From contig JAOUHN010000006.1 in the NCBI GenBank assembly GCA_029865125.1, forward strand, positions 1-32,127: a stretch of 32,127 nt of DNA, read 5' to 3'. Below, one piece after another: positions 7,853 through 31,029 of this stretch. The notes below the pieces were generated by a model. It had not been told where the DNA came from and made no database searches. It was given only the letters and a program-made list of their open reading frames with translations. The DNA comes from Candidatus Moraniibacteriota bacterium (GTDB lineage: Bacteria > Patescibacteriota > Minisyncoccia > Moranbacterales > UBA9337). A program made the position numbers and the translations under genes. Position 1 is the first letter of the stretch, and every line of letters begins with the position of its first letter.

Positions 7853-8479
7853 ATGAAAAAAGTTTACAAAGTTGAAAAGAAGGATTCAAGGTATTATTAT
7901 GCAATTTTATTTTTTCATACCTTATTTGCAACAATCTTTGCTGTAATTGGCATTTCTAATATGGTTAATGGAAATAGGGAGGTGGCTGTCACATTTGGAA
8001 CAATAGCCTTATTTTTCATAATGTTAAATGTTTATTTATATTTTTTGAATTACAGGATTGAGATTGATGAGGAAAAGATGATTCTTTGTGAAAAAATATT
8101 TGGCTTTAGTATTTTTAAAGTTAATATTAAGGATATTGAAAATTTTCAGTGTTTTGAGATTGCTCCATTTTATCAATCATCTGGTTTTGAATTTACTCCT
8201 CTTTTATTTCAGCATGAATGGGCAACACTGGTAGTTATTAGCGCTAACGGGAAAACTTTTAAGAAGAGGTGGTATATTGAGAAGGATAAGGTTTTAAAGG
8301 TGAAGAGTGATTTATTGGAATTAAATAGCAAAATATCTGATAGATCGCTCGAATTTAAGCCCAATCCTTACGAGAAGATTTTTAGGAAAATGTGGAAAGG
8401 TGTAAAGATTGATACTTCAAAGCTTGTTATTGTTTTGTTTGTTTTGGTTATGATTTTTATATGGATTGTTTTTAAATAA
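7853..8479 (+). CDS. Hypothetical membrane protein, possibly bacterial-PH-domain-like
   Basis: 208 aa; paired N-terminal TM helices, beta-rich middle, C-terminal TM (LVIVLFVLVMIFIWIVF). Confidence 0.6.
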   Translation: MKKVYKVEKKDSRYYYAILFFHTLFATIFAVIGISNMVNGNREVAVTFGTIALFFIMLNVYLYFLNYRIEIDEEKMILCEKIFGFSIFKVNIKDIENFQCFEIAPFYQSSGFEFTPLLFQHEWATLVVISANGKTFKKRWYIEKDKVLKVKSDLLELNSKISDRSLEFKPNPYEKIFRKMWKGVKIDTSKLVIVLFVLVMIFIWIVFK

Positions 8480-10041: not shown

Positions 10042-10833
10042 TTGAAAATACAAACCGATAGTAATAATAGCGGCATAATTGGATTAAAGGTGGGTTCCGC
10101 TGTTGTGACCAAGTGTAGAGGGGTTATCAATGAGGTTATAATAGAAGAAATTTGCAAACAATGCGCAGTGCTGATGAGAGAAGGTAAACAAGTTTTTATT
10201 GTTAGCTCAGGTGCAGTAAGTTGCGGATTTAAAAAAGGAAGATCGCGTAATTTGTGTGCAGCCATAGGGCAAGTGCCACTTGCCAATACGTATGAAAAAT
10301 ATTTTGCAAAGCATGGAATTGAAGTGTCGCAACACTTATTCACAGATCATGATCTTTTGGTGGCTAATCGCGTGACCCGAGACACACTAACAGAAGCAAT
10401 GAGTGGTGGAGTTATCCCGATTATTAATGCCAATGATACTGTTTCTAGTCGAGAATTGAAAAATCTTGAAAGCTGCACGGATAATGATAGGCTATTTGAG
10501 ATCGTGTGCAAACTTGTTGGGGCTGCAATCGCTGTTATTGGGTTCAGTGAAGATGGATTCAGAGGTAAAGATGGAGAGATAATTCATCAAATTAATTCGG
10601 GAGACGAGCATCTCGTTGAGCATGCTAGAGGAGGAGGTGAGTTGGGTTACGGAGAAAATGGAATGGAGACCAAGTTCCATGTAGCGTATAAATTAGGCAG
10701 AATGGGAATTAATTCAATGCTTGCACCAGCGAGTGCGAAAGATTTCATCTTAAGAAGTGTTTTGAGATGTCAGAATAAACTGGATGCTAATGAAAAATTC
10801 GGAACACTGTTCGTCGCAGATAACAACTTTTAA
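10042..10833 (+). CDS. Amino-acid-kinase family protein, divergent glutamate 5-kinase (ProB)-like, without PUA domain
   Basis: GLKVGSAVVT, FIVSSGAVSCG, IINANDTVSSREL, CTDNDRL, GENGMETKFHVAYKLGRMGI; TTG start with AGGGAGGAAAG SD. Confidence 0.75.
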   Translation: MKIQTDSNNSGIIGLKVGSAVVTKCRGVINEVIIEEICKQCAVLMREGKQVFIVSSGAVSCGFKKGRSRNLCAAIGQVPLANTYEKYFAKHGIEVSQHLFTDHDLLVANRVTRDTLTEAMSGGVIPIINANDTVSSRELKNLESCTDNDRLFEIVCKLVGAAIAVIGFSEDGFRGKDGEIIHQINSGDEHLVEHARGGGELGYGENGMETKFHVAYKLGRMGINSMLAPASAKDFILRSVLRCQNKLDANEKFGTLFVADNNF

Positions 10834-11363: not shown

Positions 11364-11419
11364 GCATTTTATGTTTTGGGTCATGTGTTTTATGTTATAT
11401 GCTACGTGAGATATGGTAT
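11364..11419 (+). repeat. Degenerate 7-bp-period array (class 1, YYATGTT-like), about 8 units
   Basis: gcatttt atgtttt gggtcat gtgtttt atgttat atgctac gtgagat atggtat in register. Confidence 0.65.
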
Positions 11420-11428: not shown

Positions 11429-12595
11429 ATGAAAAAGCGAATTGGGATTGATGCAAGATTTTATGGTCCTTTTGGGAAGGGGTTGGGGAGATATGTTCAA
11501 AAATTGATCGAGAATCTTGAAATGATTGAGAATGATAGCCCTGAAAGTGACAGGGAATATTTTGTGTTTCTCAGAAAGGAAAACATTGATGAATATGAGC
11601 CGAAAAATGAGAGATTTCACAAGGTGCTAGCACACTATCAATGGTACACTTTTTCTGAGCAAATCAACATGCCTCGACTTTTGAATAAATACAAGCTGGA
11701 TTTGGTTCATTTTCCTCATTTCAACATTCCTATTTTATATTTCAGACCGTTTGTAGCGACTATTCATGATTTGATTCTCTTGAACTTTCCAACAGTGAGA
11801 GGGACAACTTTGAATCCGCTATGGTACAAAGTGAAATTTTTGGCGTATAAGCTTACAATCGGACTTGGAATAAGGCGTGCAAGAAAGGTGATTGCTGTTT
11901 CCGAGTTCACTAAAAATGACATTTTGAAGCACTACAAGAGCATCGATGAAGAAAAAATAGTGGTGACACACGAGGCATGTGACAGGGAAGAAAAAGTTGA
12001 AATTGATGCTGAAAAAAATTCTGAGATACTCAAAAAATATGGTATAATAAAGCCATATGTTTTGTATGTGGGGAATGCATATCCTCACAAAAACCTCGAA
12101 AGATTAATTGAGTGTTTTTTGGATATTAACAGAAAAAATGAGAATTTGCATTTAGTTTTGGTTGGAAAAAAAGATTATTTCTATGAAAAACTTGAACGTT
12201 TGAGAGAAAAGCTGAATGTGAAAAATGTTATTTTTGCAGGTTTCATTCCGGACAAAGACTTGGGTGTAGTATATGAAAATGCAAAATTATATGTTTTTCC
12301 GTCTCTATATGAAGGATTCGGACTTCCTCCACTGGAAGCAATGAATAGAGGGGTGCCGGTTGTCTCATCGAGTCATTTATGCATGAAAGAAATTTTAGGA
12401 GATGCTGCATATTATTTTGATGGAAGAAATGAGAAAGAGATGTCGCGTGCAATTTTGAAGGCGAGTGGCGACGATGAGCTTAGAGAGGAACTTCAAAAAA
12501 AAGGACGAAAACAAGTTTCTTTGTATAGTTGGAAAAAAATGGCGCAAAAAACATATGAAATATATCAAAAATTTTTGAGAGAATATTCAGAATAA
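11429..12595 (+). CDS. Glycosyltransferase family 4 (group 1)
   Basis: GKGLGRYVQKL, DLVHFPHFNIP, YVLYVGNAYPHKNLERL, FPSLYEGFGLPPLEAMNRGVPVVSS. Confidence 0.93.
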   Translation: MKKRIGIDARFYGPFGKGLGRYVQKLIENLEMIENDSPESDREYFVFLRKENIDEYEPKNERFHKVLAHYQWYTFSEQINMPRLLNKYKLDLVHFPHFNIPILYFRPFVATIHDLILLNFPTVRGTTLNPLWYKVKFLAYKLTIGLGIRRARKVIAVSEFTKNDILKHYKSIDEEKIVVTHEACDREEKVEIDAEKNSEILKKYGIIKPYVLYVGNAYPHKNLERLIECFLDINRKNENLHLVLVGKKDYFYEKLERLREKLNVKNVIFAGFIPDKDLGVVYENAKLYVFPSLYEGFGLPPLEAMNRGVPVVSSSHLCMKEILGDAAYYFDGRNEKEMSRAILKASGDDELREELQKKGRKQVSLYSWKKMAQKTYEIYQKFLREYSE

Positions 12596-19450: not shown

Positions 19451-21316
19451 ATGACTGCACAAGAAATCAGAAGAAAATATTTGGAATTTTTTGAATCAAA
19501 AGGGCACACCATTATTCCCTCTGATTCTTTGATACCTCAAAATGATCCAACCACACTCTTCACGACAGCGGGAATGCATCCGCTTGTGCCATATATTATG
19601 GGTGAGAATCATCCTGGAGGAAAGCGAGTGGCAAATGTTCAAAAGTGTATTCGAACAACGGATATTGAGGAAGTGGGAGACACTACCCATCACACTTTTT
19701 TTGAGATGCTTGGAAATTGGAGTTTTGGAGACTATTTCAAAAAAGAGGCTATTGAGTGGAGCTGGGAATTTCTGACTTCAGATCAATGGTTGGGCTTGGA
19801 CAAAAAAAGAATAGCCGTTTCTGTTTTTGCGGGAGATGAAGACGCTCCTTTTGATAAAGAGGCATTTGATGTTTGGAAAAATTTGGGAATTTCAGAAGAA
19901 CGAATAGCTAAGCTTCCAAAGAAGCAGAATTGGTGGGGTCCAGCAGGACAAACCGGTCCATGTGGTCCAGATACAGAAATATTCTATTGGGTTGGAAATC
20001 CTGACAAGGTTCCAAAAAGCTTCAATGACGATCATGACAATTGGGTGGAAATCTGGAATAATGTTTTCATGCAGTTTGAAAAAAGCAAAGAAGGAAAATA
20101 TGTTCCATTGAAACAAAAAAATGTAGATACGGGAATGGGATTCGAAAGAATTGTTGCAGTCATGTGCGGGATGAGTGACAACTATGAGACGGAGCTTTTC
20201 ATGAATTTGATTAAAAAAATTGAAAGTCTTTCAAGAAAGAGTTATGGGAATCTTGAGAATCACACAAGATCAATGAGAATTATTGCGGATCACATCAAAG
20301 CAGCCGTTTTTATTGTAGGAGATGACAAAGGAATAGCTCCTTCAAATACAGACCAAGGCTATGTGGTGAGGAGATTGATTCGAAGAGCCATTCTTCATGG
20401 AAAAAAAATGGGAATTGAAGAGCAAAATTGGACCAGTCTTTTGGCGCAGGTTGCAATAAATGACTACAAAAATATCTATGAAGAGCTTGAAAGAAATGAA
20501 AAATTTATTTTGAGTGCTATAGAAGATGAAGAGAATAAGTTTATAAAGACACTTGAGAAAGGCCTTAGGGAGCTTGATCGAATTGCTGTTGAAGTGAGTT
20601 TGGATGATAAGGAATTTGCTGAGAAAAAAATTGCTATGTTGCAAAGAGGAATTATTCTCAGAAAATTGACAGGAAAATCAATTTTTGATTTGAGAACCGT
20701 ATATGGTTTTCCGCATGAGATGGTTGAAGAGGTTGCTCAAGAAAGAGAACTTGTGATCCCTCAAAGAGAATGGGATGAGGCCAATAGATTATTTGAGGAT
20801 CATCAAAAGCTTTCAAGAACAGCTAGTGCCGGAAAATTTAAAGGAGGACTTGCTGATGCAGGAGAAGAAACAAGAAAATTGCACACAGCAGCACATTTGA
20901 TGCTCGCAGCGCTTAGAAAGGTTTTGGGTGATCATGTTTCACAAAAAGGGTCCAATATCACAGCAGAAAGACTTCGCTTTGATTTCGCGCATGGAGAAAA
21001 GCTAACTGATGAACAAAAAGAACAAGTGGAAAATTTAGTGAACAATGCGATTGAGAAAAATTTTCCAATTACTGTCACTGAGATGTCAGTAGATGAAGCA
21101 AAAGAAAAGGGTGCTGTTGGAGTTTTTGATTCAAAATATGATGAAAAAGTGAAAGTATATCACATTGGAGACGGTGACGAGACTTTTTCATATGAAATTT
21201 GTGGAGGTCCTCATGTCACAAACACTAAAGAGCTCGGAAAATTTAGAATCAAAAAAGAGCAATCTTCTGGGGCAGGAGTACGAAGAATTAAAGCAGTACT
21301 TGTTGAAGAGAGTTGA
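19451..21316 (+). CDS. alaS: Alanine--tRNA ligase, short form lacking the C-Ala domain
   Basis: EIRRKYLEFFESKGHTIIPSDSLIP, TFFEMLGNWSFGDYFKKEAI, editing motifs HTAAH and CGGPHV; ends GAGVRRIKAVLVEES. Confidence 0.95.
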   Translation: MTAQEIRRKYLEFFESKGHTIIPSDSLIPQNDPTTLFTTAGMHPLVPYIMGENHPGGKRVANVQKCIRTTDIEEVGDTTHHTFFEMLGNWSFGDYFKKEAIEWSWEFLTSDQWLGLDKKRIAVSVFAGDEDAPFDKEAFDVWKNLGISEERIAKLPKKQNWWGPAGQTGPCGPDTEIFYWVGNPDKVPKSFNDDHDNWVEIWNNVFMQFEKSKEGKYVPLKQKNVDTGMGFERIVAVMCGMSDNYETELFMNLIKKIESLSRKSYGNLENHTRSMRIIADHIKAAVFIVGDDKGIAPSNTDQGYVVRRLIRRAILHGKKMGIEEQNWTSLLAQVAINDYKNIYEELERNEKFILSAIEDEENKFIKTLEKGLRELDRIAVEVSLDDKEFAEKKIAMLQRGIILRKLTGKSIFDLRTVYGFPHEMVEEVAQERELVIPQREWDEANRLFEDHQKLSRTASAGKFKGGLADAGEETRKLHTAAHLMLAALRKVLGDHVSQKGSNITAERLRFDFAHGEKLTDEQKEQVENLVNNAIEKNFPITVTEMSVDEAKEKGAVGVFDSKYDEKVKVYHIGDGDETFSYEICGGPHVTNTKELGKFRIKKEQSSGAGVRRIKAVLVEES

Positions 21317-21341
21317 GATTTGAGAAATGAGATTTGAGAAA
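21314..21341 (+). repeat. Four 7-bp units (class 2): TGAGATT TGAGAAA TGAGATT TGAGAAA
   Basis: Exact 7-bp register; first unit overlaps the alaS stop codon. Confidence 0.7.
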
Positions 21342-29360: not shown

Positions 29361-29388
29361 ATTTCTTATTTTTTATAACTTTTGATGC

Positions 29389-29416
29389 CACTCCAATATA
29401 TCGATATATTGGAGTG
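29389..29416. repeat. Perfect 28-bp palindrome CACTCCAATATATCGATATATTGGAGTG
   Basis: Reverse complement equals itself. Confidence 0.9.
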
Positions 29417-29440
29417 ATGGCAGAGCAATTTTTTTGAGTG

Positions 29441-29552
29441 TTTGTTATATGTTTTGCATTTTTGCTTCATGTTTCATGTTCTATGTTTCATGTTATGTGA
29501 TTCATGTTTTGTGTTTCATGATTCATGTTCTGTGTTATGTGATTCATGATTT
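29441..29552 (+). repeat. Degenerate 7-bp tandem array (class 1), about 16 units, consensus near ATGTTTC
   Basis: Segments in exact 7-nt register, e.g. atgtttc atgttct atgtttc atgttat gtgattc atgtttt gtgtttc atgattc atgttct gtgttat gtgattc. Confidence 0.85.
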
Positions 29553-29573
29553 TAGTGTTACAATATCACTAGT

Positions 29574-29608
29574 AAGAGTTGAGATTTGTGATAGAGAATT
29601 GAGAATAT
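29574..29608 (+). repeat. Five 7-bp units (class 2): agagttg agatttg tgataga gaattga gaatatg, ending at rarA start
   Basis: 7-bp register, TTGAGAA-like. Confidence 0.45.
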
Positions 29609-30809
29609 GAAAAACAATCAAGAAAATTTTTCTCCTTTGGCTAGCAGGATGAGACCGAAGAAGCTGAGTGAGTTTTTTGGTCAGGATCAACTTGTTGGTG
29701 ACGGGGCATATTTGAGGCGAGCCATTGAAAATGACAATGTTTTTTCAATGATTTTTTGGGGTCCTCCGGGAACAGGAAAAACTACTCTGGCTTCAATCAT
29801 TGCTGAGGAAACAAACTCTGATTTCATTGAAATGAGCGCAGTGGACAGTGGAGTGAAGAGACTTCGAGAAATTGTTGATGTGGCTGAGAAGAACAAGCAG
29901 GCAGGAAAAAGAACTATTCTTTTCATTGATGAGATTCACAGATGGAACAAGGCTCAACAGGACAGATTGCTTCCACATGTTGAAAGGGGAGGAATTATTC
30001 TCATCGGGGCTACAACAGAAAATCCAAGCTTTGAAGTGAACAGCGCGCTTCTTTCAAGGGCAAGAGTTTTTGTTTTGAAAAATCTTTCGGTGGGGGACAT
30101 TGCAAAAATGCTTGAGCGAGCTCTTGAATCAGAAAAGGGACTCAAAAAAGAAAAGATTAAGATTGAAAAGAAAGACCTTGAAAGAATCGCAGATCTTTCC
30201 AATGGAGACGCTCGAATTGCGCTCAATGCACTTGAAATTTGCACGAGTATTGGGAAAAAGATTACCAAAGAAATAATTTTGGAAGTTTTTCAAAAAACTA
30301 ATCTTGTGTATGACAGAAACGGAGATGAACATTTCAACATCATCTCTGCACTTCACAAATCCATGCGAGGAGGAGATGCAAGTGCGGCGGTGTATTGGAC
30401 AGTTCGAATGCTTGAAGGTGGGGAAGACCCGATCTATATTGCCAGAAGGTTTGTTCGTTTTGCGTCAGAAGACATTGGACTTGCCAACAACACTGCTCTT
30501 CTCTTGGCCAATTCTGTTTTTGAAGCGTGTCAGAAGCTTGGAATGCCGGAATGCGGGGTTCATCTTGCGCATTGTGCGATCTATCTCGCCAAATCTCCAA
30601 AAAGTGTGGCTGCCTATGACGCATACACTCAAGCGCAAGCAGATGTGAAAAAACACGGGAACCTCGATGTCCCTCTCCACATCAGAAATGCTCCCACAAA
30701 ACTCATGAAAGATTTGGGATATGGCAAAGGATACAAATACACCCCAAAAGAGGACAGCGCTGACCAGGAATATTTTCCAGATGAGTTGAAAGGGAGGACG
30801 TACATGTAG
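29607..30809 (+). CDS. rarA: Replication-associated recombination protein A (AAA+ ATPase)
   Basis: LASRMRPKKLSEFFGQDQLVG, Walker A GPPGTGKTT, Walker B ILFIDEIHRWNKAQQD, IGATTENPSFEVN. Confidence 0.96.
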   Translation: MKNNQENFSPLASRMRPKKLSEFFGQDQLVGDGAYLRRAIENDNVFSMIFWGPPGTGKTTLASIIAEETNSDFIEMSAVDSGVKRLREIVDVAEKNKQAGKRTILFIDEIHRWNKAQQDRLLPHVERGGIILIGATTENPSFEVNSALLSRARVFVLKNLSVGDIAKMLERALESEKGLKKEKIKIEKKDLERIADLSNGDARIALNALEICTSIGKKITKEIILEVFQKTNLVYDRNGDEHFNIISALHKSMRGGDASAAVYWTVRMLEGGEDPIYIARRFVRFASEDIGLANNTALLLANSVFEACQKLGMPECGVHLAHCAIYLAKSPKSVAAYDAYTQAQADVKKHGNLDVPLHIRNAPTKLMKDLGYGKGYKYTPKEDSADQEYFPDELKGRTYM

Positions 30810-30810
30810 C

Positions 30811-30936
30811 GTGGATCATAGAACATGGAACATAGAACACATAGCATAAAACATATAACATGGAGCATAAAGCATGGAACACGTAACATAGAACACATAA
30901 CATAGAACACATAGCACGTAACATAGAACATGAATT
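30811..30936 (-). repeat. Degenerate 7-bp tandem array (class 1, reverse orientation), 18 units, + strand consensus near ATAGAAC
   Basis: atagaac atggaac atagaac acatagc ataaaac atataac atggagc ... atagaac atgaatt in unbroken 7-nt register. Confidence 0.88.
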
Positions 30937-30943
30937 CCTTTCT

Positions 30944-30978
30944 CATGTTACATGCTATGTGTTGTATGTTCCATGATT
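30944..30978 (+). repeat. Inverted arm of the 30811 array (5 units)
   Basis: Reverse complement of 30944-30975 matches 30824-30855 at 28 of 32 positions. Confidence 0.8.
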
Positions 30979-30998
30979 TTCATTGACTAATCCACTAG

Positions 30999-31029
30999 CG
31001 CTTGCTATCCTATTGGCAAGCGTTTTTTT
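30999..31029 (+). terminator. Intrinsic terminator
   Basis: CGCTTGC-tatcctattg-GCAAGCG-TTTTTTT. Confidence 0.85.

Follow-up and report, generated by a model that had tools for sequence, protein, structure and literature searches.

Outward-facing arrays of a degenerate seven-base repeat beside rarA and many other genes of a Candidatus Moranbacteria genome

The window, as the whole analysed stretch of 32,127 nucleotides is called here, carries an intact gene for the replication-associated recombination ATPase RarA that is accompanied on both sides by tandem arrays of a 7-bp unit, the heptad. Homologues of this RarA are full-length and 71-58% identical and come mostly from Patescibacteria, with Candidatus Moranbacteria (Moraniibacteriota) as the nearest named relatives. 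The host assembly is a Candidatus Moranbacteria metagenome-assembled genome of 1.03 Mb in 72 contigs, about 92% complete. The features considered are the following:

11371..11419, + strand: further RTGYTHY array of 7 units, with a weak score of 32, just upstream of a 388-aa open reading frame starting at 11429
29387..29421, + strand: terminator-like hairpin, GCCACTCCAATATAT.., with a T-run at 29429-29435, on the inner side of the upstream array; read from the sequence, with the stem present in the RNA fold
29441..29562, + strand: upstream RTGYTHY heptad array, pointing toward rarA; profile score 92, with tandem repeats finder (TRF) rows
29607..30809, + strand: rarA, 400 aa, intact; open reading frame and homologues
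30806..30931, - strand: downstream heptad array of 18 units, left arm of a hairpin; score 151
30932..30944, no strand: hairpin centre between the arms, GAATTCCTTTCTC; sequence and RNA fold
30945..30979, + strand: right arm of 5 units with the terminal unit ATGATTT; score 38 and hairpin in the RNA fold
30997..31024, + strand: intrinsic terminator-like hairpin past the rarA 3' element; terminator scan

The arrays beside rarA, which had been noticed in a sequence-only reading of the window, are real and lie far above chance. Lag-7 identity amounts to 0.61 in 29441-29562 versus 0.38 in first-order Markov shuffles (z = 4.5) and to 0.68 in 30815-30932 versus 0.33 (z = 6.8), with none of 5000 shuffles reaching the observed value in either case; the autocorrelation excess proposed as a check is thus present, and the top lags of the whole window are 7 and its multiples 14, 21 and 28. 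With a heptad profile fitted to the genome, the 18 units of the downstream array, which starts at the rarA stop codon, and the short further arm are recovered as had been counted, and the orientations of the arrays and the unbroken 7-nt register of units drifting in sequence are equally borne out. Of the 16 units claimed upstream of rarA, 13 are strong and clear (29462-29552), while the remainder of that count consists of degraded, weaker units reaching back to 29441. The array at 11371-11419, the fourth in the window, had been missed. Pairing of the arms as RNA or DNA, which had been considered a possibility, agrees with the predicted RNA fold of the 3' arm pair (30806-30979), which is 4.8 SD better than that of shuffles (z = -4.8). 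The hairpin at 29387..29421 was not called by the intrinsic terminator scan, and a scan of the window at Rfam gathering thresholds returned tRNAs only.

Two minor observations concern the same window. A 105-aa open reading frame (MFYVTCYVFYVMCSML..) on the minus strand at 30629-30946 spans the downstream array, as that strand is free of stop codons there, and reading frames running through arrays in this way are a likely source of spurious annotated proteins. At 21308-21341, near the end of an alaS-like gene, lies a short array of about 4.6 units of another heptad, GAGATTT / GAGAAAT.

Genome-wide, the fitted heptad reads R-T-G-Y-T-H-Y, with near-invariant T2, G3 and T5 and with changes at positions 1, 4 and 7 that are mostly transitions (A/G or C/T). 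The statistics derive from pattern searches and from 311 kb of stretches picked around hits. A genome search for slightly less than four consecutive RTGYTHY units gave 642 overlapping matches versus 11 for the reversed pattern, and 65 arrays with a score of at least 25 were found in the 311 kb sampled versus 1 in a reversed-sequence control; since the stretches were chosen around hits, the resulting figure of one array per 4.8 kb overstates the genome-wide density. Arrays comprise 4 to 38 units. Tandem direct repeats of the unit occur at many loci, mostly intergenic, as in heptanucleotide tandem repeats of the STRR or heptamer LSSR type. As a query, the rarA 3' element matched heptads 70 times, at many loci, and had nothing beyond heptads in common with them. 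Since arrays of this kind also lie beside many genes unrelated to it, the proposed link to rarA is rejected and no role specific to rarA is indicated; rarA simply sits between two repeat sites, and its arrays are ordinary copies of a dispersed repeat.

Some arrays of the genome are perfect and others diverged, which supports the suggestion of continual regeneration, and higher-order units of 14 and 21 bp as well as perfect sub-arrays are present. Equally, the arrays have recognisable ends. The first unit, usually placed after a short T-run, often begins with TTG in place of ATG or GTG (43% in this genome, 23 of 42 in relatives), and an A at position 4 is found in 29% of the last units versus 1% of the middle units in this genome and in 7 of 42 last versus 1 of 111 middle units in relatives, some of whose loci had been fetched because they matched. 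The TTG start and the RTGA tail therefore give the module a direction and ends. A core common to every copy was not found, and TCCGGAT terminators are common to two loci only. A conserved sequence of about 150 bp of the kind that defines a repeat family was likewise not encountered: only the heptads match between loci, with the exception of one pair. In stretch L035, the intervals 8298-8447 and 10523-10672, which lie in neighbouring spacers, represent two copies of a 150-bp unit with 95% identity, and one other locus only shares a long unit with L035 beyond the heptads. Gene duplication as the origin of this shared flank of 112-150 bp was considered and discarded, as the adjoining LeuA-like proteins are only 24% identical; the pair represents recent copying or conversion between spacers.

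The repeat also has a constant polarity. Wherever two opposed arrays lie no more than 150 bp apart, a minus array is followed by a plus array (16 of 16 pairs, 10 in this genome and 6 in four relatives) and never the reverse, while one further pair at this distance is (-,-); in relative genome G027, a gap of 67 nt from a (+) to a (-) array separates what appear to be two consecutive hairpins. With the left arm minus and the right arm plus, each strand reads RTGYTHY outward from the centre. Other array pairs are predicted to fold into hairpins as the rarA 3' pair does, so that the degenerate heptads would base pair into a stem. The arms are alike at the consensus level only. A recently formed perfect palindrome was also considered and rejected, as arm-to-arm matching of the unit order was no better than for shuffled units in any of 11 pairs. 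An intrinsic-terminator-like hairpin with a T-run adjoins the inner side of 12 of 62 arrays and the outer side of 2 of 62, with a random expectation of 2.4%. Of 35 single arrays, 27 face whichever gene is nearer.

Where arrays point at the 3' end of a gene, the outer end lies within 17 nt of the stop codon in 18 of 24 cases (median -1), a coincidence that is partly automatic because the RDARCAY strand is rich in stops, so that an array reaching into a gene terminates its reading frame. Arrays pointing at a 5' end (n = 30) keep a median distance of 96 bp, which is room for a promoter. Four arrays reside inside open frames, on the opposite strand, three of them in conserved housekeeping genes into which they are inserted in frame. 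In DNA polymerase I (polA) the array covers residues 119-131, the segment that is extra with respect to Taq polymerase comprises residues 121-157, and the insertion is missing from most relatives; Fpg has about 43 residues, the array among them, without a counterpart in solved Fpg; and an Elp3-family protein has about 21 residues, the array within, that solved homologues lack.

The closest relatives available for comparison stand at the genus level. Relatives do carry such arrays, the lack of which had been named as a refutation, and the arrays are not tied to rarA. In many members of the same order, however, RTGYTHY arrays are few or absent, and the host has the most among the genomes searched. 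The fpg loop is variable across relatives and often holds a different heptad (TCAAAAA in G016 and G020; AATTTCC in G005, G009 and G022), as does polA (CTCGCAA in G001, CTCACAA in G004). In 18 fpg loops, lag-7 identity is 7.7 SD above codon shuffles, with lag 6 up by 4.4 SD, lags 5, 8 and 9 by less than 2 SD and lag 10 below the shuffles. The heptads of the loops also recur elsewhere in their own genomes, which was counted in favour of a dispersed repeat: AATTTCC triplets are found in G022 (43 hits), G005, G009 and G002, and CTCRCAA has 9 hits at 3 loci of G001, with no hit for either in the host genome. Equally, period-7 stretches number 33 in 634 kb of relatives and 28 in 752 kb of mostly Patescibacterial rarA loci, as compared to 0-15 for the other lags from 4 to 28. 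The period-7 units differ between lineages and several are palindromic, such as CTAACAA/TTGTTAG in L064 and TGAATTA/TAATTCA in L112. The congeners G022 and G055 are 80-93% identical in aligned blocks; in most of the intervals that separate these blocks the sequence differs, and a given spacer position is often occupied by different palindromes in the two (L175 versus L211-L212). Repeats of about 100 bp, for example at L175 14607-14713, recur dozens of times across these two congeners.

Taken together, the arrays probably represent a dispersed heptad repeat that is non-autonomous, forms hairpins, lengthens by slippage and finds tolerance in spacers and in the loops of proteins, and their interest is that of genome parasites or fillers, not that of a rarA switch. 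The module consists of 4 to 38 RTGYTHY units, often with the TTG-type start by the hairpin centre and the RTGA-type tail at the outer end, placed mostly in spacers, often as two arms facing away from a common centre, which in some cases contains a transcription terminator. Each arm may grow, shrink and homogenise independently by slippage or unequal exchange, as suggested by the perfect sub-arrays, the 14- and 21-bp higher-order units and the matching of arms at the consensus only. Spread of copies between sites is suggested by the motif, start and tail shared by dozens of loci, by the 150-bp unit copied between two spacers and by the presence inside genes. Copies lie at stop codons, in the stretch from terminator to promoter and in loops of conserved proteins, there in the orientation whose coding strand yields a polar peptide, and they would persist at such sites because little harm is done. 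As an argument against this reading, local slippage by itself could give rise to short heptad arrays in polar A-rich loops. With respect to miniature inverted-repeat transposable elements (MITEs), the outer ends share the RTGA tail, and neither a defined target duplication nor a true empty site is seen among the comparison genomes, of which the closest are at genus level; equally, a mover, with Y1_Tnp as the transposase searched for, or a fixed core was not identified.

Several other explanations account for part of these observations. Arms inverted around rarA led to the proposal that their recombination flips the gene and thereby changes its expression. This is barely credible, because the arms share an exact match of at most 13 bp and similar arrangements exist at many other loci around unrelated genes; their best gapped identity is about 74-78% over 74-90 bp, and they do not form the long near-identical inverted repeats expected of an invertible switch. 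Only marginally better placed are elements of the REPIN/RAYT type moved by a Y1 tyrosine transposase, to which the palindromic arrangement in spacers, the high copy number and the occurrence of Y1_Tnp in many relatives would fit. However, the unit structure is unlike that of REPs, the host, with the most arrays of the genomes searched, has 0 matches to PF01797 (Y1_Tnp) in a search in which positive controls were recovered, and the relatives G002, G010, G014 and G049 have heptad matches yet no Y1_Tnp; the absence in the host is not proof, as the assembly is about 92% complete.

On the other hand, arrays might be plain microsatellites, each born in place by polymerase slippage at a length of 7 nt favoured in bacteria and never moving between sites. 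A survey summarised in PMC4679880 (compare PMC4692102) ranks heptamers first among repeats of 5-11 nt in most of the bacterial genomes covered and ascribes them to polymerase slippage. The dominance of lag 7 in Patescibacteria with many different units and the perfect runs in the host genome are in line with such an origin, but one degenerate motif with a common start and tail at dozens of loci, the outward pairing, the copied 150-bp unit and gene-loop heptads that match heptads elsewhere in the same genome speak against it, and we regard it as unlikely. A little more weight, although still that of an improbable alternative, is given to cis-acting sites, be it hairpins that reinforce mRNA 3' ends or terminators, sites for a sequence-specific DNA- or RNA-binding protein or DNA-uptake signals. 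Cold-shock proteins, a comparison for the protein-site reading, bind one per heptamer. The constant orientation, the constrained consensus (T2, G3 and T5 nearly invariant), hairpins beyond shuffles, the location at stop codons, by terminators and upstream of promoters, and the annotation of hepta- and octanucleotide inverted sites in Geobacter as putative regulator sites (PMC2700814) are compatible with this reading, whereas a unit number ranging from 4 to 38, the many relatives of the same order with few or no arrays and with other heptads in the same sites, and the arrays within polA and fpg speak against it. A regulatory or uptake role may nevertheless exist.

The dispersed heptad repeat, with its dozens of loci and its outward opposed pairs, combines traits of known systems, to which it adds the constant outward polarity, the start and tail and the lineage dialects at the same sites. 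One of the closest likenesses is to Rickettsia palindromic elements (RPEs), short dispersed palindromes of small host-dependent genomes that occur in spacers and, as their hallmark, in frame in conserved protein genes (PMC10969869); RPEs, however, are about 150 bp long with a conserved peptide, whereas here only the degenerate 7-bp unit, the start and the tail are common and the length varies. Degenerate heptads pair into a stem in P6b of the Nostoc tRNA-Leu intron (PMC3488679), but in that single intron stem only, whereas the arrays described here occupy dozens of loci, in part around terminators, face outward and also have copies in protein genes. Many intergenic direct 7-bp repeats per genome are equally known as TAACTGA in Beggiatoaceae and as GGGAATC in Xanthomonas, where inverted pairs have been reported, with similar ones in Nostoc (PMC4679880; PMC4692102). 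In contrast to the degenerate unit with up to 38 copies and outward pairing seen here, TAACTGA is a nearly fixed unit with 2-6 copies per set in its main host, and GGGAATC has G-quadruplex potential. The tandem hepta- and octanucleotides of Geobacter metallireducens are present in many copies, some on opposite strands and mostly paired (PMC2700814), but with fixed 4-5 repeats, unrelated sequences and an annotation as putative 'global regulator' sites. REPs and REPINs with RAYTs are extragenic palindromes in high copy number (PMC3733652; PMC2817692), yet these palindromes measure 20-40 bp, bear tags of the GTAG/CGTC type and go together with Y1 transposases, whereas the host has no match to PF01797. 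A description of heptad or palindromic repeats in Candidate Phyla Radiation (CPR) bacteria was not found in the open-access literature.

It is conceivable, although well short of an even chance, that Patescibacteria harbour a widespread class of heptad-armed palindromic repeats with lineage-specific 'dialects', in which a process makes or copies outward 7-nt arrays at terminators, stop codons and permissive loops. From species to species, one dialect would then take the place of another at a given site, and the system behind this may lengthen or copy 3' ends at hairpins with no need of a classical transposase. If the dispersed-repeat reading is true, even very small, streamlined genomes are heavily loaded with a palindromic repeat built of heptads, which occupies many non-essential sites, loops of DNA polymerase I and Fpg among them, in a manner similar to RPEs in Rickettsia. 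The constant 7-nt unit with its changing sequence would offer a natural test of the bacterial heptamer preference, and the outward polarity would be a strong clue to a copying process. For annotation, a warning is in place, as arrays create spurious open reading frames and shift apparent gene ends.

Other repeats accompany the heptads in the host. Perfect (TATGTGT)n runs occupy the first ~110 bp of contigs C1 and C21 and occur again at C3 48643-48760, and the assembly probably breaks inside such arrays. A second repeat type, nine-base arrays (AAAGTCCRT), adjoins heptad arrays at L031 4023-4127, L035 10526-10560, L040 1734-2042 and L041 8890-9325, and a dispersed palindrome, TGTCATCCTGAACTTGATTCAGGATCCC, often abuts heptad arrays, as in the flanks of L034 8737-8806, L040 9797-9901 and L041 8890-9325.
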